Source: a virus
Reading direction: 5' to 3' (one strand)
Virus record (IMG/VR): IMGVR_UViG_3300028837_004139
Span: 1-42,165 of that record
Length of the DNA stretch: 42,165 nt
This document shows positions 4,470 through 41,325 of this stretch, one piece after another. Under the pieces are notes generated by a model. That model had not been told where the DNA came from and ran no database searches. It worked only from the letters and a program-made list of their open reading frames with translations. Each line of letters opens with the position of its first letter. Within the stretch, counting starts at the first letter, position 1. A program made the translations under genes and the position numbers.

Positions 4470-4811
4470 CTACTCCTCTAAGTACCTAACTGGTTTCTTA
4501 TGCCCAACTGCGTAGTCGACCTCGCTACGGGTGCTCTCGCCTACATATCCGTTAATATTAATCACAAGAACCTCATCAGCTAGATCAATCTTCCGCTTGT
4601 GGACTTCGTCAACAATCTCTTTCACACCTTCTTGGTCGCCGATATGAGTCTTATCTTCCCCCTTAAAGTACCCTTCCGGTAGGGCACACCAGCTTAGTAC
4701 AATGTATCCTTGCTTGGTATACTCCCATTGGACTATTAACATCTCTGCTGTGAATCTAGTCGATCCGCATAAGCATAGAACTTTAGGAAATCCAAGATCT
4801 TTTCTGTTCAT
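4470..4811 (-). CDS. Nucleoside 2-deoxyribosyltransferase-like protein
   Basis: A protein of about 113 residues with the pattern KVLCLCGSTRF near the N-terminus, HKRKIDLADEVLVINI in the middle and GESTRSEVDYAVGHKKPVRYLEE at the end. This is the common phage family related to nucleoside 2-deoxyribosyltransferases (DUF4406-like), which cleave or exchange bases of deoxynucleosides. The start at 4811 overlaps the polymerase stop as ATGA and has GGAG eight bases upstream. A longer in-frame start at 4838 would lie inside the polymerase gene. Its substrate is unknown. In a phage that makes 7-deazaguanine bases, a nucleotide-handling role is plausible but unproven. Confidence 0.75.
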   Translation of the reverse strand: MNRKDLGFPKVLCLCGSTRFTAEMLIVQWEYTKQGYIVLSWCALPEGYFKGEDKTHIGDQEGVKEIVDEVHKRKIDLADEVLVININGYVGESTRSEVDYAVGHKKPVRYLEE

Positions 4812-7123
4812 GATATCTTCTCCATCGTCGGCCCCCAACAGGAGCCTGTTTTTATTGATATAGGGAAGCAGTAGTTTTCGAGTTCAGGAATAGGTCGGGA
4901 CATTACCCTTTTAACCCAGTCTTTAGCTGCTTTCACAGGAAGACACTCTGGAACCTGGAAGAGGATCTCATCGTGGACTGCTAGGAGAGGCTTTATTTTC
5001 CAACTCGCTTGTTCTGTTCTCGTTAAAGAAGTCGAGCATACGTCTCCAGCAGCACTTTGGACTTTAAAATTCAAAGCCTCTGTGATAGAATTGCAATATC
5101 TTACTCTACCAAAGACAGATGTTAGATATCCTTGATCTTTCCATTCTTTAATATTAGCCTCTCTCCATCTTAAAAGGTTTGGATACTTATTGAGAAGCTT
5201 ACCCAGCCATATCTCAGCTTGAGTATCTGAGACTTTAAACTCTAAAGCGATAGAGCGTTTAGAGCGTCCGTAGATTGCTCCAAAGGTCACCCTCTTTGCG
5301 GGGCTGACGTCTAAGCTAGTATAGTTTTCAGGAAGAGGCTTGCCAAAAAGCATTTCGTGGGTCTCACCGTGAATATAGACACCTGAAGCTATCATATCAA
5401 GTATTACTTGCTCTTCTGCTTGAATAGCAGCTACGAGCAGCTCCAGCATATTATAGTCAGCGTCTAAGAGATAGTATCCGGGATCAGGAATGAATAGATC
5501 TCTTGTTTCATCTGGTATATTTTGAAGATTAGGATTTCTGCTGGATAAGCGGCCGGTAGCAGTTCCGGAGGAGTCGAAGATGGTATGGACTCTACCGTCA
5601 GGTTTTATTCTTTGGCTAAGGCCTATTAAGTAAGTTGATTCTATCTTCTGAGGTTTTCGATAATCCAGGATTTGGTTTATGAATTTTGCTTGATCCTCAG
5701 TATTAGCTGCTAGCTCTAGTTTTTTTAGCTGTTTTACATCCGTCTTAGGATTTCCTTTTTTAGTATATTTAACTGGAAGCCCTAACTTAGCCAACATCTT
5801 ACCAACATCTTGTGGAGACCTTGGGTTGATACCTCGGCGTAATAGTTCGTTTTCTAAGGCTTCCAGTTTAGGGCCTATGTTGATGGTTTTTTCAATCAGG
5901 GCGACTTTGTCGATTAGGACGCCTCTGGCCATGATGCTGATTAAGGCTTCTGTTAAAGGGATAGTAATCTCCTTCATCGCCTTCAAGAGGTGAGCGGGCA
6001 TGTCTGCCTCTTGCGCCAATCTGACACGCCAGGTAACATCAGCATCACGGCATGAGTATAGGTTTAGCTCTTCGGGAGAGAGATTCCAGACGCCTCGTTT
6101 TCTAGCTGCTTCTTTATAGGGCAGGACGTCTGTGTACCAAGATCGCAACCAAGACAAATCACGGGGGAGGTCAGAGTAAAGCATCCCGGCAGCGAGCTTA
6201 GTATCCCAACTAAGGTTGTGCATAGGGTGATCCTGGACAGTAAGCCAGAAATTGTCAAAGGAAGCGTTTTGGATCGTTTTGGGAACTCTTGGGTCTTGCA
6301 ACCATGGTTCGAAGACTTTCCATCTTGGGTCATTATAAGGATCTCCTCTATTTAAAGCTACTGATACGGCTTCATATTCAATACCGCTGAAAGAGAAGCC
6401 TATTAGTTTATCATAGTAAGGATCTAAGCCTGTTGTTTCAAGGTCAAAGGCGAAGCCTAGAGGCTGAACCTCATTATGCTCTTCTAATAACCTGCCTAGG
6501 TGGGCGGCAGAAGGGTCGTAGGTATATCTCGTCTTCATCCGTTGGAAACGTTTTCCAGCAGCTAGGAGGAGAGCTGCTTTATTGAAAACGTTGATGATGG
6601 CGAGTAGGTAACCCTTCTGCCGGATTGCATAGGCGGGATGGAAGGCAGGTAAAAGTAGTTGGCTATCACCTGATTCTGTGAGAGGAGTGCCTTGGTAAGC
6701 CGTTATGCCTTTTTTACTTGTTAGAGCCTGTAGAGCTATTTCACCTAGAGGGATAATAAGTTTAGGTTTATACCCGTACAGCTCTTTAAGGAGATTATGG
6801 GTACAGGCTTGTATTTCGCTTGGCAGAGGATTCCTATTACCAGGCGGCCTGCATCTAACTACATTGATGATCGCAGTCCTTTTTAACCCTTCCCATCTTA
6901 GAGGAAATTTTTGGCTTATAAAAGCCTTTGGTTCAATAGAACTACGTAGGACTACGCCTAAGAGCCTACCTGCACCGCCGACGAAAGGCTTTCCGTTAAT
7001 ATCCTCATCCTCGCCAGGAGCCTCGCCTACTAGTAAAATATCACAAGGCTTAGGTCCAGTACCCCAAACGATTTTCTTCCTGGTTTCATGCAACTGACAT
7101 TGTTGGCATTCCTGTGTCTCCAC
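4808..7123 (-). CDS. Uracil-DNA glycosylase / family-A DNA polymerase fusion
   Basis: One reading frame of about 771 codons joins two enzymes. Residues ~1-190 form a family-4-type uracil-DNA glycosylase with four cluster cysteines (CQQC; RCRPPGNRNP; EIQAC), GEAPGEDED and FHPAY. Next comes a DEDDy 3'-5' exonuclease (FDLETTG ~228-234, NASFD ~288-292, YSCRD ~358-362), then a polymerase I catalytic domain: motif A DADYNMLELL, motif B KRVTFGAIYG, motif C VHDE. The residue matching E. coli Phe762 is Phe. All catalytic residues appear intact. I prefer GTG at 7123 (GGAG seven bases upstream) over the TTG at 7129. It is the only DNA polymerase seen in the window, so it is probably the replicative enzyme. 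Confidence 0.94.
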   Translation of the reverse strand: METQECQQCQLHETRKKIVWGTGPKPCDILLVGEAPGEDEDINGKPFVGGAGRLLGVVLRSSIEPKAFISQKFPLRWEGLKRTAIINVVRCRPPGNRNPLPSEIQACTHNLLKELYGYKPKLIIPLGEIALQALTSKKGITAYQGTPLTESGDSQLLLPAFHPAYAIRQKGYLLAIINVFNKAALLLAAGKRFQRMKTRYTYDPSAAHLGRLLEEHNEVQPLGFAFDLETTGLDPYYDKLIGFSFSGIEYEAVSVALNRGDPYNDPRWKVFEPWLQDPRVPKTIQNASFDNFWLTVQDHPMHNLSWDTKLAAGMLYSDLPRDLSWLRSWYTDVLPYKEAARKRGVWNLSPEELNLYSCRDADVTWRVRLAQEADMPAHLLKAMKEITIPLTEALISIMARGVLIDKVALIEKTINIGPKLEALENELLRRGINPRSPQDVGKMLAKLGLPVKYTKKGNPKTDVKQLKKLELAANTEDQAKFINQILDYRKPQKIESTYLIGLSQRIKPDGRVHTIFDSSGTATGRLSSRNPNLQNIPDETRDLFIPDPGYYLLDADYNMLELLVAAIQAEEQVILDMIASGVYIHGETHEMLFGKPLPENYTSLDVSPAKRVTFGAIYGRSKRSIALEFKVSDTQAEIWLGKLLNKYPNLLRWREANIKEWKDQGYLTSVFGRVRYCNSITEALNFKVQSAAGDVCSTSLTRTEQASWKIKPLLAVHDEILFQVPECLPVKAAKDWVKRVMSRPIPELENYCFPISIKTGSCWGPTMEKIS

Positions 7124-7505
7124 GAGCAAACTCCGTTGTTATAGGTATACCACCTCTGGGCTTCCAATCCATACGGATGATTAGCCATAAAGGTTTTATT
7201 GTTCCAAAGATGTCGTTGAGTATTTTGATGTTGATACTTTCAGCAAAGCCTTTAAAGTTTCTAAAGGCATGGAGGTAGAGCTTTAAAGACTTTGTTTCAA
7301 GAGTATAGTCTTTGGGAGAGAATCTTATAATAATCTCCGCCCAGTCAGGTTGAGAGGTGATAGGGCATAAAGAGGTAAATTCTTCCGAGCGAAAGCTTAT
7401 AGCTCCGCTAGAGGAGCCTTTAAACAGGGGTATCGACTGTAATATTTCTCTTGTCGGTTCCGCCTGTGGTTTGTAGCCCCTTCCGCTCTTGAACTCTGTT
7501 ACCAT
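7086..7505 (-). CDS. queF: QueF-type 7-cyano-7-deazaguanine reductase
   Basis: The 139-residue protein matches short (Bacillus-type) QueF. It has the catalytic cysteine and aspartate in FTSLCPITSQPDWA (C47, D54), the NADPH-binding signature LETKSLKLYLHAFRN (~69-83) and the WKPRGGI end motif. QueF reduces preQ0 to preQ1 with NADPH. One difference stands out: the FHE triplet of B. subtilis QueF (His96-Glu97, from memory) reads FAE here, so the histidine is replaced by Ala88 while Glu is kept. The ATG at 7505 has GGAG eight bases upstream. It overlaps the DUF3310 gene by 86 bases and the polymerase gene by 38. Confidence 0.92.
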   Translation of the reverse strand: MVTEFKSGRGYKPQAEPTREILQSIPLFKGSSSGAISFRSEEFTSLCPITSQPDWAEIIIRFSPKDYTLETKSLKLYLHAFRNFKGFAESINIKILNDIFGTIKPLWLIIRMDWKPRGGIPITTEFARGDTGMPTMSVA

Positions 7506-7704
7506 GCTTTTTACTCCATTGTCTTATTAACCTATTAAGACACCATCTGGCTTTTAGAAGATCATCAAGGCCATTTTTTTCTTTGTAACGACAGATGTAT
7601 TTTACTATATTGCCTTCATGGTGGTTAAGATCCATGCTTTCGATTAAATGAACTGGCATGATGGTGCCTTTTTTGGGTTTGTAGTGATCAGGTCTTTTTA
7701 TCAT
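7420..7704 (-). CDS. DUF3310 phage protein
   Basis: A 94-residue protein starting with the DUF3310 pattern: RPDHYKP, then HHEGNIVKYICRYKEKNGLDDLLKARWCLNRL, close to the consensus (HY... GN.iKY..R...K....DL.KA..yL). DUF3310 proteins are frequent near phage nucleotide-metabolism genes and have been called nucleotide-kinase-like, but their biochemistry is unsettled. The last ~28 residues, read over the start of queF, are low in recognisable structure. The start has GGAGGCGATAAA directly upstream and overlaps the folE stop as ATGA. Confidence 0.85.
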   Translation of the reverse strand: MIKRPDHYKPKKGTIMPVHLIESMDLNHHEGNIVKYICRYKEKNGLDDLLKARWCLNRLIRQWSKKHGNRVQERKGLQTTGGTDKRNITVDTPV

Positions 7705-8276
7705 TTTATCGCCTCCAAAAACTCCTGTTTAACATGGGGCATTACTAAAAAATACCCTTTAAAAGAGTTCATTACGACTCTGGCTGTAGTCTCTACTCCT
7801 CTACATTGCATACAGCCGTGATCGCCTATTACAGTACAACCGCAACCGTGAGGTTCAAGTTTAGTCATGATGAAGTCGGTGATTTCTTCTGTAATATCTT
7901 CTTGAAGCTTCCAGCCTGAGGCTATGTAATCAACTATCCTGGCTAATTTAGAAAGCCCTACGACACGGTTTTTAGGTATATAGCCTACGTGAACGGTATA
8001 GTGGACTCGTTCGAGATGATGAGGACAGCGTGACCAGGCTTCATGGCCTTTTAGGATTACCATTTGATCGTAATCTGCTGGGAAAACGGGAAGCTCAGGT
8101 TCTGAAGCTTGGACTTCTTCACGGAGCATTTTAGCCATTCTAGTGGGAGTGTCGATGAAGTTAGGATCGGAAGTGTCGATGTTTAGGCTTTCTAGAAGAT
8201 CTGCAACTGCTCGTTCGGTTGTACGGGGCTTCCAGAGTTTAGAGGCTTTAGTTAGGATCTGGAGGTCTTTTTTCAT
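7701..8276 (-). CDS. folE: GTP cyclohydrolase I (FolE)
   Basis: FolE turns GTP into dihydroneopterin triphosphate, the first step of both folate and 7-deazaguanine synthesis. The 191-residue protein has the zinc ligands C84 and H87 (RCPHHLE) and C155 (DHGCMQCRG), plus HVGYIPKNRVVGLSKLARIV. The usual RRLQxQERLT segment reads SGWKLQEDIT, so it is a divergent phage form. It is coupled to neighbours by ATGA overlaps on both sides. With queD, queE and queC in the same genome, its role is most likely supply of preQ0 rather than folate. Confidence 0.95.
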   Translation of the reverse strand: MKKDLQILTKASKLWKPRTTERAVADLLESLNIDTSDPNFIDTPTRMAKMLREEVQASEPELPVFPADYDQMVILKGHEAWSRCPHHLERVHYTVHVGYIPKNRVVGLSKLARIVDYIASGWKLQEDITEEITDFIMTKLEPHGCGCTVIGDHGCMQCRGVETTARVVMNSFKGYFLVMPHVKQEFLEAIK

Positions 8277-8804: not shown

Positions 8805-9044
8805 TCAAGTAGTAACAAACTCACCATTCTCTCTTACTCCATAATACCCTTCAATTTCAGGAAGACCGTGCTTGAGCGCAACAGCATGACAGGCCTTTTT
8901 TGCATCAACTGTGACTGTATCTCTTTTTATTCCTTCAGCAACGGAGAAGACAATCATTATGTCTCCTGGCTTCCAGCCTCCTGAAGCGATTCGTCGCAAC
9001 GCTTCGAGCTCTTTTACCGTAGCGAAAACTTCGGTTCCTTTCAT
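8805..9044 (-). CDS. Hypothetical protein (79 aa)
   Basis: A 79-residue protein (MKGTEVFATVKELEALRRIASGG..., ending YYGVRENGEFVTT) with no recognised family. An AAAAGGAGGATAAAAG site lies just before the ATG. This ribosome site immediately follows the 12-bp closing stem and T-run of the structured element at 9065-9141, so the leader could control this gene. The N-terminal helix and short strands suggest a compact soluble protein. Confidence 0.65.
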   Translation of the reverse strand: MKGTEVFATVKELEALRRIASGGWKPGDIMIVFSVAEGIKRDTVTVDAKKACHAVALKHGLPEIEGYYGVRENGEFVTT

Positions 9045-9064
9045 CTTTTATCCTCCTTTTAAAA

Positions 9065-9141
9065 AAGCTAGCAGTGAGTCAGCCTGTCTAACCCGATGCT
9101 GACCTACCTATGGGACGTAGCGCAAAGGCCACTGCTAGCTT
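9065..9141 (-). ncRNA. Candidate structured RNA / cis-regulatory leader (three-way junction)
   Basis: A perfect 12-bp closing stem (9065-9076 with 9130-9141) encloses two smaller hairpins: 9078-9083 with 9098-9103 (6 bp) and 9104-9107 with 9117-9120 (4 bp). On the minus strand the closing stem is followed by six T residues and then the ribosome site of the 79-residue gene. The geometry is tRNA-like at first sight, but there is no T-loop or anticodon arm. It could be an attenuator, a riboswitch-like leader or a stable small RNA. No known family is recognised. Confidence 0.45.
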
Positions 9142-9206
9142 AGAAAAGCAGCTACAGGCTCCTGGCACCTATACTTTGTAATAGTATTTGACAAAGTAAC
9201 ACCTCA

Positions 9207-9244
9207 CTTATTAAAAGGTAGACCTTTCGGCCTACCTTGATAAG
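9207..9244 (-). terminator. Long hairpin with GAAA tetraloop
   Basis: Read on the minus strand, a 10-bp stem (one G-U pair) is closed by a GAAA tetraloop and extended by a further 5-bp stem after a small internal loop. A short TTTT follows the main stem. It may be a weak intrinsic terminator or an RNA-stabilising or processing hairpin. The wobble pair exists only on the minus strand, which favours a leftward transcript. Confidence 0.45.
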
Positions 9245-9354
9245 CTACCTGCTCCCCCACTCCCGTCTTAAAGACAGCTGCTTAAGATTTGTTAACTGAT
9301 CCCCCTCCTGTTTATAAGCCACCAACCACTAAGTCGTAGCTATCAGTTAACCCT

Positions 9355-9813
9355 CTAGGCTGAAAAATTCTGCAGCCTGTTTCTCTTTGTACCTTGGTAG
9401 GTATCTATGATAGCCTCAGCACCGAAATCAGTGCCTATAGTATCCTGCAAGATCGCAAAGAGATCTTCCTCTGAATAATCGCCATCAGGAATAGGCTCTC
9501 CCATACAAGCTTGGTAGAAAACATCTGCTCTCCAAACGGAGTTTTCTTGTAAAGGAAAGTTATCGACTACCTTCTGGCCAAGCATTTCCTCATTATCGCC
9601 CTCGGTGACAATGGCGGTCATAAAGGCATTCTTGGCATCGCTGGATTTAGAATCTGCTATCTTCCAGCCTGATACTTTGAATTTGTAGAACCCTGGCTCC
9701 ACGATGGCACCAGCTCTTGTTGATTGATCAACTTTAATCATCTTGGTTTCACCTCCTTTCTTGGTGGATTTTTTTTTAGGAGCTTTAGGCTCCTTTTTAC
9801 GCTTTTTTACCAT
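9355..9813 (-). CDS. DUF669-like phage protein, candidate ssDNA-binding protein
   Basis: The core (from about residue 25) has the layout of DUF669-type phage proteins: a short N-terminal segment, GFYKFKVSGWKI, a beta-rich body (FMTAIVTEGDNEEMLGQKVVDNFPL) and a C-terminal YQGTKRNRLQNFSA. These often replace ssDNA-binding protein in phages. It lies directly downstream of a Sak4-like ATPase, which supports that role. The first 24 residues are a highly basic Lys-rich tail. Two starts each have a good ribosome site: ATG 9813 (GGAG) and in-frame ATG 9741 (AAAGGAGGT). Two isoforms, with and without the basic tail, are therefore possible. Confidence 0.68.
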   Translation of the reverse strand: MVKKRKKEPKAPKKKSTKKGGETKMIKVDQSTRAGAIVEPGFYKFKVSGWKIADSKSSDAKNAFMTAIVTEGDNEEMLGQKVVDNFPLQENSVWRADVFYQACMGEPIPDGDYSEEDLFAILQDTIGTDFGAEAIIDTYQGTKRNRLQNFSA

Positions 9814-10696: not shown

Positions 10697-10747
10697 TCTA
10701 AGGCTCCTTTATACTTTTAATGTTGATAGAGCTCTCTCTGCAGCTCC

Positions 10748-10990
10748 CTAACCATTATCACGGTTGTACAGTTCGGGGTAAAGTTCATCCCCTGACAGGT
10801 CGACTTTCATTACACGGCCTTTAAGATAGTCGAAATATATACGACCTTTGCAGTTGTCTAAGAGCTCTTAAGCTTCATCTCTCGTCATAGGCTCTGGGTT
10901 GAAGTGTAAGAATCCTAGCCCCTGTGGCTTGCTGCAGTTGTAAAGAGCAGCTAGTACTTCAGCTTTGTTGTACTCCGCTAGATTTATCAT
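10748..10990 (-). pseudogene. Small phage protein interrupted by in-frame TAA (80 codons)
   Basis: The start ATG (10990, AAAGGAG upstream) opens a frame reading MINLAEYNKAEVLAALYNCSK, which is recognisably a conserved phage/prophage small protein. It meets TAA at 10868-10870 after 40 residues. The same frame continues without shift through FDYLKGRVMKVDLSGDEL to RDNG and a TAG at 10748-10750, which matches how I remember intact relatives ending. The gene is therefore broken by one substitution or read through. A downstream ATG in the second half could allow a short C-terminal product. Confidence 0.6.
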
Positions 10991-11313: not shown

Positions 11314-11664
11314 TTAAACCTCCGCCCATGATGTTGGTGTTTCGTATACTCGGACGCTATCTATTTCCCTTGTAGGCTTTCTACTTAGCAAAAAATAGAG
11401 CTCGTCGCTTATATATCTAACTAAGTTCTCCGCAGTTGGGTTAAGGAGATAGTCGTTTAGAGTAGAGTGATCGAGTTTACTAGCTACAGTGTTGAGACAA
11501 GATTTTAAATGCTGAAAATCTATAACCATTCCAGTACCAGGATCTACAGATCCTTTTACTACTATCCTAACCAACCATCTATGCCCGTGCATTTTTGAGC
11601 AGGGGCCAGGATGATTAGGAAGGTAATGAGCAGCATCGAAATGTTGGGTTATGGAAACTTTCAT
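11314..11664 (-). CDS. queD: 6-carboxy-5,6,7,8-tetrahydropterin synthase QueD
   Basis: QueD converts dihydroneopterin triphosphate to 6-carboxytetrahydropterin, step two of preQ0 synthesis. The 116-residue T-fold protein shows the zinc histidines H13 (FDAAH), H26 and H28 (HGH), the catalytic cysteine C22 (CSKMHGH), the LDHSTLND segment and PTAENL with the substrate-binding Glu. All are characteristic and intact, and the length is typical. A GGAGG-type site precedes the ATG. It sits between a small membrane protein and a zinc-ribbon gene in the leftward block. Confidence 0.95.
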   Translation of the reverse strand: MKVSITQHFDAAHYLPNHPGPCSKMHGHRWLVRIVVKGSVDPGTGMVIDFQHLKSCLNTVASKLDHSTLNDYLLNPTAENLVRYISDELYFLLSRKPTREIDSVRVYETPTSWAEV

Positions 11665-14311: not shown

Positions 14312-14327
14312 TTTAATTATCCTTCTG

Positions 14328-14697: not shown

Positions 14698-14733
14698 AAA
14701 GATGCTAACAAGTGCTTTCTTGCTAACATCTTT
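14698..14733 (-). terminator. 15-bp hairpin, probable leftward terminator or attenuator
   Basis: A 15-bp stem with a 6-base loop (AAAGCA on the minus strand). The two imperfect positions are G-U pairs only when read on the minus strand, so a leftward RNA is favoured. It lies between the 51-residue gene and the inverted-repeat-flanked gene. Only short T stretches follow, so termination may be partial. Confidence 0.5.
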
Positions 14734-15146: not shown

Positions 15147-15158
15147 AATATTATCCTC

Positions 15159-15347
15159 CTACTCTGCGAGGCAATCTTCAGCGCAATCCTTACATACTCT
15201 ATAAATGCCAAATGGAGTCTTAACGCTTCTCATATAACTCTCAAAATATTTAACTCCATACGTATGGCTAGGATTGCCATTAGGCGATGTCTTACTTTCA
15301 TCGAAGTGTGAAATGTGCTCACACTTACACTTCTCTTATTCGCTCAT
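15159..15347 (-). pseudogene. Small Cys-containing phage protein with in-frame TAA at codon 4
   Basis: A clear ribosome site (AGGAGGATATT) and ATG at 15347 lead into MSE, then TAA at 15336-15338. The same frame stays open for 58 further codons with a protein-like sequence: EKCKCEHISHFDE, then SPNGNPSHTYGVKYFESYM and VCKDCAEDCLAE, ending TAG at 15159-15161. The paired cysteines look like a conserved zinc-type phage protein. No in-frame ATG, GTG or TTG near the break would rescue it, so the gene is broken or read through. Confidence 0.55.
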
Positions 15348-15392
15348 AATATCCTCCTATTTTTTGACGTGATAATATTTCGACATGATCAT

Positions 15393-36074: not shown

Positions 36075-38983
36075 TGCCTAGTGCAGCTGAGATAGCTTTA
36101 GAGGCAATGAATCAGGCTACAAGTCTTTTTCAGGTACCAGCGGATATATCTCCGAGAATTCTTGAGACTAAAACCCTAAGGAGACCTGATGAGGAGAGGG
36201 AGGAGTATACTAGATTTAAAGGAGAGCATCGTAACGAGATGTTAAGGATTTTAGGGCTTTTGAAGGAAGGGCCTGAGCCTTCGCTTAGCGCTAGAGAAGA
36301 GCTTTATGAGAGATATCCTATCTATACTAAAGAAGGCTTGAAGCATGGCATCATCGGTCTGGAGCCTTTATCAGAATCAGAGTACCAAGCTCTAGATCCT
36401 AAAATAAGAAAAGAAATGGAATCCTTCTTTGGTGAAGTTCATCTTGAGGAGATGAAGAAGATTGAAACTCCTGTTGATGCTAGAAAACTACAAAAAGAGC
36501 ATGGTTTAAAAGAGCCTTTTTGGCTAAACCCTCCTGAGTGGGCTGGAGGAATCGCAGCTGGGATTATTAAAGCTCCTGTTAGGCGAGGTGCGGGGCTAGT
36601 AGGAAGGGAGATAGCTGCTGAGTTGACTTTAGGAGCGAGTGAGTTAGCTAGAGCCTTACCGAAGGTTGCTAAAAAGGTTCCTAGTGCTATTGATAGCGTG
36701 GTTGATAGTTTAAAGAGGAAGTATACATGGAGACAGTTGACAGAAGAAGGAGCTGTTGCGGCTGACCTCTGGCCAGGGCAGCAGATGACTGCAGCAGGGA
36801 GACGGTTGCAGGAGAATATCAAAATGCCCAAGTTCGTCGAAAGGACTTGGGGAGCCCCTAATCTTAGAAGATTGTTGATACCGGCAGTAGATGATTTGGA
36901 AAAAGAAGCAAAGATTCTCTTTAGAGGTCATCGAGTAGGTATGGCTAAGAGACAGGAGGTTATTAAAGAAGCTACTGAGCCTTTATGGGATCTTACTCCG
37001 GAAGAGCATGAGGTAGCTCTGCAGTATTTGGCTAGGGAAAGTCCTTATGACGTAGCTGATACTTTAGGAATGACTGTCGATGAGTTATTTACTCCTAAAT
37101 GGGAAAACGCTCGAAACGCTGCTGCTAAGGTCAGGAATGTATATCACAGATGGGGCCTTGAGGCTACAGGATACTCTAAAAAAACTGGCGAAGCGATGCT
37201 TAAGAAAGAAACTTATTTAAAAAACCTCATGACCTATCTCCCTGATATGGCTATGGTTAAAGAGTATCCTGAATTGTTTGGGCCTAAGCTAGCAGATATG
37301 GAAAACCCTCATTTAAGGAAAAAGTTCAGAGCTGATTTGTCTAGGTTTATGAAGAATAAGGGTATTATCAAAGCTCATAAAGAGGAGATGTTACAGATCT
37401 TGGATCTTAAGTATCTTACAACTAAGTCATTTGGGCAGCTATCTCAGGATATCGAGACAGCTAAGCTGTTTCAGAGGTTAGAAGAACTACCCGGCTACGT
37501 CTTCGATGATATGAAAGGTTTAAAAGAATTCCAAAGCCAGTTCAATGAAGCTTTTGAAAAAGCTGGAATAGATCCTGAGAAAGGATTGAAGAAGATAGGA
37601 TTGTATAGTAGCCAATTTAAACAGATCCCTGATGTTGATAAAGCTTTGAACTTGGCTAATAAACTAATCCGCAGCGATGTCGCAAACGTACTTGAAGATC
37701 AAGCTAAAGTAGCTTCTGAGTTTGGCAGGTTATTTGAAAGGCTTTTGGCCCCATGGAAATTTGGAAAGGTAGTCTTAAGGTTCCCTACTCATTGTAGGAA
37801 TATTATGTCGAATTGGATCTTAAACGATATAGGAGGACTTCCCTTTTATAGATTAGATTATTATACCAGCGCCCTGAGGCAGTTTAGATCTAAAGGAGAT
37901 ATATATAAATTAGCTAAAGATAAAGGCTTACTCTTGGCCACGTTTAGAGAGCATGAGCTGCTAAGGCTAGAGAGGTCCTGGGATGAGAAATCAGGCTTTA
38001 TAGGCCTTTTGAGCAAGGTTACTAAGCCTGCTGCGGATCTATACCAAGCTGAAGAGCAATGGTTTAAACTGGCTAAATTCATGTGGCATATGGATAACGA
38101 GGTTAAAAGAGGCGTAATGGATATCGACGATGCTGTCGAGGCGGCAATGGAGTCGACTTTTGATTATGGTACTAGTACAGCTTTCCAAAGGACTGTTAAA
38201 AGAACCATGATGCCGTTTGCTACATGGCCTTTTAAATCTATTCCTTATATGGCTAGGATGGCAGTAGAGCATCCTGTCAGATTTGGTAAATGGCCTGCTA
38301 TGTTCTATGGCGTGTCTCATTATTCAGCTGATAAGTTGCTTGGCAGCAATCAAGAGTGGAAAAGGCTTCAAGGCCAAATGGCTGATTATCAAAAACAAAA
38401 GCGTTGGCTTTTTTTGCCTTGGAAAGATGAAAAGGGTAGGCTGCAGTTGATAGATTTGACCTATATCTTGCCTTGGGGCGATATAGCAGAGCTAGGCCAG
38501 CAAGGGTTTAAAAGAGTAATGCAGAATCCAGCTGTTACTATTCCTTTTGATTTGTCGAAGAATAGAGATTTTATGGATAGGAAAATAGTCGAAGATTGGG
38601 AGAGAGGAAAAAAGGAAGGTTATTTGAAACAAGCTGCTTATATTTATAAACAACTATCTCCATCCTCATTCCCAGGCTCTTGGGACTGGGAGAAGATGAT
38701 GGATGTAGTCGGTGGTGCAGGAAGAAGAGAGCCTGGTGTTATGACTCCGAAGCAAGCAGTGTTGTATAATCTAGGACTTAAAATTACGCCTACTACTGAG
38801 AGTTTTATCAAGGAGAGTTTTGAAAGCAGGTATGATAGAATGAGAAGCGAGCTTGAGCAAAAGTTTGATAGGGATATTGAGAGAGAACATAGACCTAAAG
38901 AGAGATCTAAGATTCGGAGGGAGTACCGGAGGCAGTACCTGGGCTTGGAGAAGGAGTATCGTCAACTGAGACGGGGGCAGTAA
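36074..38983 (+). CDS. Large internal virion protein (969 aa, putative ejection protein)
   Basis: The largest gene of the window. Start GTG after GGAGAGGAATA. The N-terminal ~100 residues are charged helices. An Ala/Gly-rich segment (~170-205, GGIAAGIIKAPVRRGAGLVG) could insert in membranes. The rest is long helical repeats with aromatic patches (LPFYRLDYYTSALRQF, FATWPFKSIPYM). No lytic transglycosylase motif is obvious. Size, last place in the late block and helical character fit podovirus DNA-ejection proteins. The last 77 bases overlap the opposite-strand O-antigen-ligase-like gene. Confidence 0.65.
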   Translation: MPSAAEIALEAMNQATSLFQVPADISPRILETKTLRRPDEEREEYTRFKGEHRNEMLRILGLLKEGPEPSLSAREELYERYPIYTKEGLKHGIIGLEPLSESEYQALDPKIRKEMESFFGEVHLEEMKKIETPVDARKLQKEHGLKEPFWLNPPEWAGGIAAGIIKAPVRRGAGLVGREIAAELTLGASELARALPKVAKKVPSAIDSVVDSLKRKYTWRQLTEEGAVAADLWPGQQMTAAGRRLQENIKMPKFVERTWGAPNLRRLLIPAVDDLEKEAKILFRGHRVGMAKRQEVIKEATEPLWDLTPEEHEVALQYLARESPYDVADTLGMTVDELFTPKWENARNAAAKVRNVYHRWGLEATGYSKKTGEAMLKKETYLKNLMTYLPDMAMVKEYPELFGPKLADMENPHLRKKFRADLSRFMKNKGIIKAHKEEMLQILDLKYLTTKSFGQLSQDIETAKLFQRLEELPGYVFDDMKGLKEFQSQFNEAFEKAGIDPEKGLKKIGLYSSQFKQIPDVDKALNLANKLIRSDVANVLEDQAKVASEFGRLFERLLAPWKFGKVVLRFPTHCRNIMSNWILNDIGGLPFYRLDYYTSALRQFRSKGDIYKLAKDKGLLLATFREHELLRLERSWDEKSGFIGLLSKVTKPAADLYQAEEQWFKLAKFMWHMDNEVKRGVMDIDDAVEAAMESTFDYGTSTAFQRTVKRTMMPFATWPFKSIPYMARMAVEHPVRFGKWPAMFYGVSHYSADKLLGSNQEWKRLQGQMADYQKQKRWLFLPWKDEKGRLQLIDLTYILPWGDIAELGQQGFKRVMQNPAVTIPFDLSKNRDFMDRKIVEDWERGKKEGYLKQAAYIYKQLSPSSFPGSWDWEKMMDVVGGAGRREPGVMTPKQAVLYNLGLKITPTTESFIKESFESRYDRMRSELEQKFDRDIEREHRPKERSKIRREYRRQYLGLEKEYRQLRRGQ

Positions 38984-40520
38984 AGTTTTTTATAGCTTTC
39001 TCAACTTCTTCTAAATCCTTCTTAGCCGGTTCAAAATAAGGATTCAAATACAAAGCCATTTGAAAAGCGTTTCTAGCCTGTAGTAAATTTCCATCCGCAG
39101 CAAATATTTCACCGCATATTGTATAGTGCGCCCATTCTATCTTTTCACCGTCAAAATGGTGTTGAGATCTTTGCGCATAGATACTAGCAATAGTAGTGTT
39201 TATGTCCATGTAGATCTCTGCCGCATGACTTAGGTACATAGTTCTTGTATTATCTCTTTTCAAGGCTTCGTTTATAAGTGCTACTGCTTTTTTAGGATCT
39301 TTTTCTCTTAAAGAGAGTTGGTAGTAGTAATTTCCTATCATCGGCTTTAAGGAATGGAGATAGGTTAGATAGAAAATTATTAAAGAGATAGGAATAGTCC
39401 ATATTAAAGGTAATTGTATTACAGCTACAGGCCCACATATTACCCCTGCTAAAGCCCAGAAGGGCAAACTCGTCGCTGCGGATCTGAAAGGGTAGAAGAA
39501 AAAAGCATCTATTAATAGAGCAATTAATCCTCCTACTAAAAAAGGCTCAGGTAAGGCTCTTATTAAAACCGAGCCCAGGAAAAGAACCATAAGCCCTAAT
39601 CCGAGAACACCTGCTTCTACTAGTGTCTGGAGGTACTCCTGATGAAACCTCTTCCCGAGCTCATATTGCTGAGGCTTTCGTCTTGCTTGAATTCTAAATA
39701 TTCTACGGCGAAGTACCCTAAGACCATTACCGAAGATAGGATTTTGTTTGAATAAGTCCCAGCCGTAGATATAATAATGCTTACGACCACCCCAAGCGGC
39801 TTTGAGACCAGAGCGCCAAGGAGACATTGTTACTAGTATTAAAAACCCTGCTGCGAGGAGTAGGAGGTAAGGGTTGAATATAGAGAGGCCTATTATACAT
39901 CCTAACTGCGCTGCTCGGCAGTGGCTGTAGCCTATCGCTAAGAGGATAATAGAGGTTGGGATTAGGTAATAATAACTATAGACGCAAGCCAAATATAAGC
40001 CAATAAAAAAAGGGACTACTAAATAACTACCTGTATAATTAGGATTACCAAGCCAAGCATCTAGTCTAAGAAGCCTCGTTTTTGTTTCTCTTAGGACACC
40101 GTGATAGAATCTATCTAAAGGATCACGTTGGCTTGTTTCTTGGATTAAGCCGTATAAAGCCATAGCTACTGCTGGTAGGAAGATTGCTACTAAAAGAGGG
40201 TCTCTAGGTATCTGGCGACAAAATTGGAAAAAAATAAACAGCGCCCACCATCGAGGGATGTCTTGAAAGGAGTTTTTGACGTTATCAGACCAAGTGCAGG
40301 TTAGTGTTAGATAAGAGCAGAAGAGTAAAAGAGATAATGATGGGAGGTCTGCTACAGCAGGGAAAAGAAGGAAGAGAAACCCTGCAGCGCAGAGTACTCC
40401 CATCATAAAGATCAAAAGCTGATTCTTAGCCTCAGGATATCCATAATCCCAAGGGCCTGAGATGCGGAAGATTGGGACTAAAGCCAAAGTGAGGGCGAGC
40501 AGCCAAAAAGTATAGTTCAT
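38907..40520 (-). CDS. O-antigen ligase/polymerase-like membrane protein with TPR tail
   Basis: A 537-residue protein with about ten hydrophobic segments in the first ~380 residues. It has two signatures of the Wzy/WaaL O-antigen ligase superfamily: WLGNPNYTGSYLVVPF and GNGL...HQEYLQTLVEAGVLGLGLMV, the latter with the periplasmic-loop Arg/His residues. Residues ~390-510 hold two or three TPR-like repeats (KAVALINEALKRDN; GNLLQARNAFQMALYLNPY). Such enzymes join or polymerise lipid-linked glycans. In a phage it would change host surface sugars, for instance to block further infection. It overlaps the 63-residue gene as ATGA and the ejection gene tail-to-tail by 77 bases. Confidence 0.85.
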   Translation of the reverse strand: MNYTFWLLALTLALVPIFRISGPWDYGYPEAKNQLLIFMMGVLCAAGFLFLLFPAVADLPSLSLLLFCSYLTLTCTWSDNVKNSFQDIPRWWALFIFFQFCRQIPRDPLLVAIFLPAVAMALYGLIQETSQRDPLDRFYHGVLRETKTRLLRLDAWLGNPNYTGSYLVVPFFIGLYLACVYSYYYLIPTSIILLAIGYSHCRAAQLGCIIGLSIFNPYLLLLAAGFLILVTMSPWRSGLKAAWGGRKHYYIYGWDLFKQNPIFGNGLRVLRRRIFRIQARRKPQQYELGKRFHQEYLQTLVEAGVLGLGLMVLFLGSVLIRALPEPFLVGGLIALLIDAFFFYPFRSAATSLPFWALAGVICGPVAVIQLPLIWTIPISLIIFYLTYLHSLKPMIGNYYYQLSLREKDPKKAVALINEALKRDNTRTMYLSHAAEIYMDINTTIASIYAQRSQHHFDGEKIEWAHYTICGEIFAADGNLLQARNAFQMALYLNPYFEPAKKDLEEVEKAIKNFTAPVSVDDTPSPSPGTASGTPSES

Positions 40521-40708
40521 GTTATAACCTCCCCATCGACATAGATTTTCTTCTGTTTGTCGTCTACAGCACAGGCAAAGATTAAAGGCTCTTTCTTCTC
40601 GCTTGTAGCTGCTGTGATCTGGAGCATTGCAAAGGGTACTAGTTCCCCGCTTTGCATCCTCATTGCTCTTCCGTAGAGCTTGCTGTAGTTTATGAATTCG
40701 TATTTCAT
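40517..40708 (-). CDS. Hypothetical protein (63 aa)
   Basis: A 63-residue beta-rich protein (FINYSKLYGRAMRM, LVPFAMLQITAATSEKKEPLIFACAVDDKQKKIYVDGEVIT). Its start shares one base with the queE stop, and its end overlaps the O-antigen-ligase-like gene as ATGA, so it is translated as part of the operon. No family is recognised. Confidence 0.6.
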   Translation of the reverse strand: MKYEFINYSKLYGRAMRMQSGELVPFAMLQITAATSEKKEPLIFACAVDDKQKKIYVDGEVIT

Positions 40709-41325
40709 TATTTTGCTCCTATATACTTATGTAATTGGAAATTCAGTTGAATATCATAGATGCCTTTATCTATTAGTTTATCAAGTAAGGCCCTAGGATC
40801 TACCTTCCCCCAAACAGGAGAAATAGCTATTTTAGCCTGACAACCGCTTTGCTTGAACCATCGGTAGCGTTCTAGAGCAGTGGGAAGGTCTAAAGAACTT
40901 TCCATGATGATTTTGATATAATCTCCGTAGCGAAGATCAGCATAAACTTCTCTGTGGAAAGGTTGGTCGAGTTTGCAATCTACTACCCAGCAGACTTTCC
41001 AATCTTTAGGGGGGACTATATTTCCGTTAGTTTCTACTGTTATATGACGGATACCTGTATTATGAAGGTTCCATATTAAAGACTTCAAGTTGCTATATTG
41101 CTCTAAAGGCTCTCCTCCTGTTATAGTGACTTTAGGAGTCCAGACTTGCTTGATTATTTCTCTAACGTCCATCTCTCTTCCATCCAAGCGGCTTCTAGCT
41201 TGCGGTGTATCACAATAAAAGCATTTTAGGCTACACCCTTGAAAACGGATGAAAGTAGAGATAGTACCTTGACCAAAATGGTTTACTTCACCGTCGATTG
41301 AAGTAAAAATCTCATTTATTCGCAT
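40708..41325 (-). CDS. queE: 7-carboxy-7-deazaguanine synthase QueE
   Basis: A 205-residue radical-SAM enzyme that rearranges 6-carboxytetrahydropterin to 7-carboxy-7-deazaguanine, step three of preQ0 synthesis. It begins INEIFTSIDGEVNHFGQGTISTF, has the 4Fe-4S CxxxCxxC motif in GCSLKCFYCDT (C31, C35, C38) and TITGGEPLEQ for SAM binding. Length and motifs fit QueE. Its start lies inside the end of the coiled-coil gene. It is far from queC, queD and folE only because of where the window is cut. Across the ends it belongs to the same leftward block. Confidence 0.94.
   Translation of the reverse strand: MRINEIFTSIDGEVNHFGQGTISTFIRFQGCSLKCFYCDTPQARSRLDGREMDVREIIKQVWTPKVTITGGEPLEQYSNLKSLIWNLHNTGIRHITVETNGNIVPPKDWKVCWVVDCKLDQPFHREVYADLRYGDYIKIIMESSLDLPTALERYRWFKQSGCQAKIAISPVWGKVDPRALLDKLIDKGIYDIQLNFQLHKYIGAK

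Follow-up and report, generated by a model that had tools for sequence, protein, structure and literature searches.

The window, by which we mean the whole 42,165-base stretch of DNA analysed, is a phage record in which the genes between 1 and 16 kb lie mostly on the minus strand. This minus-dominated block encodes a primase/helicase-like protein, a Sak4-like ATPase and a PD-(D/E)XK nuclease among further genes, and it is followed by the terminase, portal and capsid genes on the plus strand. Within the block, a gap at 9045-9354 separates the stop of a 152-aa gene (9355-9813) from the start of a 79-aa gene (8805-9044), both on the minus strand and both of no known function. The 79-aa protein has no family match, and the position of the 152-aa gene downstream of the Sak4-like gene suggests that its product is perhaps an ssDNA-binding protein. 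The block downstream of the gap begins with the 79-aa gene and leads on, in this order, to FolE, a DUF3310 protein, QueF and the DNA polymerase, a family A enzyme fused to an N-terminal uracil-DNA-glycosylase domain (4808-7129, minus). Genes for QueC (893-1540), QueF-II (7086-7505), FolE (7701-8276), a QueD-like protein (11314-11664) and a QueE-like radical SAM protein (40708-41325), all on the minus strand, together make up a nearly full preQ0/preQ1 route, which suggests 7-deazaguanine DNA modification. Elsewhere in the record, a protein of 537 aa that matches O-antigen ligase (Wzy_C; 38907-40520, minus) and a hexapeptide-repeat acyltransferase-like protein (1-585, minus) are possible surface-polysaccharide genes carried by the phage.

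An earlier note made from the sequence had described the gap as free of genes, and this was borne out. Its longest internal minus-strand ORFs reach 26 aa and open with GTG or TTG, and its minus strand contains no ATG, which is true of only 3.6% of 310-nt minus-strand windows. A scan of the window with ARAGORN found no tRNA. Several of the other gaps in the minus-strand block carry short ORFs preceded by good ribosome sites, and in one there is an interrupted gene, so the gap at 9045-9354 stands out among them. Separately, we noted a full-length gene at 10697-10980 (minus) that is broken by an in-frame TAA and an in-frame TAG. Its product is 60% identical to a protein of Dulem virus 39 and 41% identical to gp28 of Streptomyces phage Gilgamesh, and the stops fall where homologues carry K, A or Q; the gene is either a pseudogene or subject to read-through. 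Stop usage in the other genes is 29 TAA, 14 TAG and 16 TGA. In a second small gene (15147-15350, minus), which a good ribosome site precedes, codon 4 is an in-frame TAA (MSE*EKCKCEH...), and in-frame stops may thus be a recurrent feature of the early region.

The gap contains two perfect inverted repeats, one of 12 bp (9065-9076/9130-9141) and one of 10 bp (9291-9300/9342-9351). The 42 kb contain eight perfect repeats of 10 bp or more with a loop of 3-60 nt, and two of them fall within these 310 bases, while ten Markov sequences of 42 kb carried between one and five such repeats each and, among all ten, a single repeat of at least 12 bp. Folding of the whole segment as the minus strand gave -104.0 kcal/mol (z -2.83), a value reached by 1 of 100 dinucleotide shuffles and the lowest minus-strand minimum free energy (MFE) among 135 tiled windows (mean -71.3, SD 12.6). 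The plus strand gave -81.5 (z -3.85; 0 of 100 dinucleotide shuffles as good), which is the largest plus-strand gain over shuffles among the tiled windows; on the minus strand, other tiled windows, for example that at 14315, exceed the segment in their gain over their own shuffles. The comparison with shuffled sequences had been named beforehand as one of two tests that could refute a structured reading, and the reading survives it. The fold of 9045-9354 is non-random, and the segment is probably a regulatory RNA. In the same scan, the 310-nt windows at 14315 and 14625 showed the largest minus-strand folding gain over shuffles, and a long hairpin, GATGTTAGC...TTAGCATC, lies in another gap at 14701-14730 (minus).

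Read on the minus strand, the segment is predicted to form a structured RNA of about 290 nt with three domains, which we call P1, P2 and P3. P1 (9291-9351; z -4.32, 0 of 200 shuffles as good) is closed by the 10-bp perfect stem, 9351-9342/9300-9291, and contains an inner hairpin (9341-9336/9322-9317 plus 9335-9332/9327-9324) together with a purine-rich single strand; its pairing probability is near 1. A small linker hairpin of six MFE pairs at 9263-9277, which alone is not significant (z -1.06), separates P1 from P2. P2 (9142-9258; z -3.46) is a multi-branch domain with strong inner arms and a weak closing helix. The arms comprise P2b, a 10-pair hairpin with a GAAA tetraloop and one G-U pair that exists on the minus strand only (9215-9224/9229-9238; probability 0.90-1.0), P2c, the 6-pair helix 9245-9240/9211-9206 that carries P2b (9206-9245; probability 0.87-0.92), and P2d, an inverted repeat forming an 8-pair hairpin (9172-9198; probability 0.66-0.93). 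The closing helix, 9258-9249/9151-9142, has G-U at four of its ten pairs and a probability that varies from 0.05 to 0.91 with the flanking sequence included; an alternative, perfect 8-bp partner at 9276-9283 reaches only 0.01-0.03. P3 (9065-9141; z -3.10 on the minus and -4.63 on the plus strand) is a three-way junction closed by the 12-bp perfect stem, of which 11 of 12 pairs have a probability of 0.93-1.0, and the 53 nt between the stem arms are folded as two hairpins one nucleotide apart. It is followed by a UUUUUU tract (9061-9066), terminator-like in combination with P3, two of whose six U lie inside the P3 stem, and then by AAAAGGAGG, the ribosome-binding site of the 79-aa gene (9052-9060, minus). 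P1 and P3, like the inner arms of P2, were stable in the flanks tested, whereas the P2 closing helix was not. The earlier note had listed five inverted repeats: the 12-bp and 10-bp perfect stems and the 10-pair GAAA hairpin are present as it described, as is the three-way junction at 9065-9141 followed by TTTTTT and AAAAGGAGG on the minus strand, but its long-range pairing, which closes P2, is not robust.

Several features bear on which strand is transcribed. G-U pairs make up 15 of 102 pairs in the minus-strand fold versus 2 of 87 in the plus-strand fold, the T-run follows P3 on the minus strand only, and the neighbouring genes point the same way, so that the minus strand is likely, although not proven, to be the one transcribed. 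The argument from wobble pairs, first made from the GAAA hairpin, is sound in kind given these counts; the shuffle z-scores do not favour the minus strand, and on that measure the plus strand equals or exceeds it, both over the entire region and in P3. A rival reading gives the segment no RNA function: the repeats would act as DNA, as protein sites or in replication, or be a chance cluster, and the gap would be a passive spacer. This would agree with the lack of any homologue or covariation, with a plus-strand fold equally strong against shuffles and with the larger gains of other minus-strand windows. It fits poorly with the concentration of long perfect repeats in 310 bases, the orientation of the T-run and G-U pairs towards the minus strand and the lowest energy among 135 windows, and we consider it doubtful.

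We additionally searched for relatives of the RNA. Neither at the gathering score nor at E<=10 did Rfam return a real match to the segment, and it returned nothing for five stretches taken from relatives; together with the negative tRNA scan, this agrees with the earlier statement that the segment resembles neither tRNA nor preQ1 riboswitches. No tmRNA was found by ARAGORN or Rfam. The best Rfam score, to the DUF2815 RNA (RF03084), covers the 3' portion of P3 together with the ribosome site, but at 19.7 bits, where the cut-off is 41.2, and E 0.41 it is at chance level. Hammerhead, group I intron, T-box, RNase P, retron and tRNA-array identities were dropped for want of Rfam support. Single-sequence covariance models of P2 and P3 run against 80 sources matched only the phage itself, and the phage record holds no second copy. 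A DNA similarity search of phages and plasmids gave chance matches only, the first 25 kb of the record had no near DNA match, and one Yaniella contig in 257 Gb matched a 20-mer of P3, roughly as often as chance predicts, and was rejected.

Exact-peptide searches with both flanking proteins and the DNA polymerase found no relatives, while alignment-based scans found relatives by capsid, at up to 59% identity, and by polymerase, at about 30%. The RNA was not found in the company of either. In the whole records of 24 capsid relatives, the 152-aa protein had no match and the RNA only a 23-base match (E 0.02). Searches with one peptide from QueF and one from a polymerase motif led to further relatives (L186-L268), none of them with the RNA. 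One distant homologue of the 79-aa protein, of 37% identity, was recovered (in L270) by a codon-degenerate pattern, and there a gene lies directly upstream in place of the RNA. The absence of RNA homologues is weak evidence because most of the relatives searched are fragments and the scans did not extend to metagenome contigs. The segment is new as a sequence, with no Rfam family or relative found, and its working principle is likely an ordinary one. In two capsid relatives, L182 (15273-19474; G013) and L180 (16872-19309; G009), the matches to the DNA polymerase are broken up by additional sequence, perhaps because of introns, inteins or split genes.

Some GOLLD, ROOL and OLE members occur in phages. 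They are large multi-domain noncoding RNAs, a description that the predicted fold shares, but they are much larger (PMC12286853) and the segment has no Rfam match. An autonomous phage RNA of about 290 nt, ended at the U-tract or cut from the operon transcript and acting in trans on host or phage targets, would account for the three compact domains, the discrete 3' end and a minus-strand energy below that of every other window in the genome scan. A promoter scan of 9000-9500 revealed no promoter-like site, however, and with neither an Rfam family nor a second copy or relative we regard a trans-acting RNA as rather unlikely.

The earlier note had also proposed a riboswitch-like leader or tandem attenuators. 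A structured, non-coding segment compatible with transcription of the minus strand is supported; those two more specific functions are not. As to tandem attenuators, the sole U-tract follows P3, and P1 and P2 have no terminator tail. A ligand-sensing leader, for example one that would respond to a preQ1-pathway compound and control the FolE/QueF block, draws on the presence in the phage of FolE, QueF-II, QueD, QueC and a QueE-like gene, and on the predicted ability of the strand 9142-9151 to pair with either P2 or the ribosome site at nearly equal energy (-104.3 versus -105.3 kcal/mol). Against it, no preQ1 family appeared in Rfam at E<=10, FolE is the fourth gene downstream of the gap, and a second anti-Shine-Dalgarno option costs 12.5 kcal/mol. 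The Shine-Dalgarno of the 79-aa gene is, moreover, among the more accessible in the genome, at rank 38 of 46 when the most paired comes first, and the nearly isoenergetic two-state pairing of 9142-9151 is indistinguishable in the models from ordinary predicted ribosome-site pairing in this genome. A translational switch by anti-Shine-Dalgarno pairing was rejected, being either not favoured or not unusual. The known preQ1 riboswitches, classes I-III, are small pseudoknots (reviewed in PMC11625349); the segment resembles them in its leader position before a FolE/QueF block in a phage that encodes the pathway enzymes, but differs in its length of about 290 nt, its three nested domains and its lack of a model match. 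We hold a ligand-sensing leader to be quite improbable.

Our preferred reading, tentative at a probability of about 0.42, is that the segment may be a cis-acting operon-boundary RNA in which P3 and the U-tract form a branched intrinsic terminator or attenuator. What the sequence shows is a non-random fold in a non-coding gap, with the stem, then the U-tract, then the ribosome site in the appropriate order along the minus strand; from there we infer transcription, termination and regulation. Read-through from the upstream recombination-type genes would transcribe the segment as part of a minus-strand operon, P1, the arms of P2 and P3 would fold in the transcript, and P3 followed by UUUUUU would act as a branched intrinsic terminator at which a share of transcripts ends. 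Expression of the downstream block, from the 79-aa gene through FolE, the DUF3310 protein and QueF to the DNA polymerase, would then be lowered or regulated, and P1 and P2 would stabilise or tune the transcript end.

A terminator is supported by the stable 12-bp stem of P3 and the U-rich run directly after it, and, as in known intrinsic terminators and attenuators, the ribosome site lies just downstream. Those have a short hairpin loop, however, whereas P3 has a 53-nt branched loop that is not textbook, a three-way junction preceded by two further domains. A scan for simple-hairpin terminators did not list P3 and its U-tract because its loop limit was 8. The strength of the plus-strand fold against shuffles, equal or greater, also counts against our reading, as do the lack of an RNA homologue and the negative promoter scan of 9000-9500. 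In one distant relative (L085), a GC-rich hairpin with a seven-T tail, read by eye, follows a weak homologue of the 152-aa gene (E 4e-4), and its occurrence at the matching place suggests a transcription-unit boundary in that lineage. The paired hairpins of P3, one nucleotide apart and inside an operon, would also allow antitermination of the kind found in phage HK022, whose putRNA of about 70 nt and two stem-loops acts without a protein (PMC9378689); by analogy, the nascent RNA would bind the polymerase, and later terminators would be ignored. By architecture, put is likewise an adjacent stem-loop pair in an early phage transcript, but it lacks an enclosing stem and a U-tract, whereas the P3 hairpins are enclosed by the 12-bp stem and followed by the U-tract. 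No early promoter was identified nearby, and we judge put-like antitermination highly improbable.

Were the segment instead a representative of a new phage RNA class, with three domains in about 290 nt, it might switch the synthesis of DNA-modification precursors or act in trans during infection, which we consider unlikely. Such a class would sit between the recombination-type genes and the preQ1/DNA-polymerase block. Uncharacterised intergenic RNAs are many in phages of unknown hosts, and by itself this segment changes no view; it stands as a clear single-sequence candidate ahead of a preQ1-pathway gene block.
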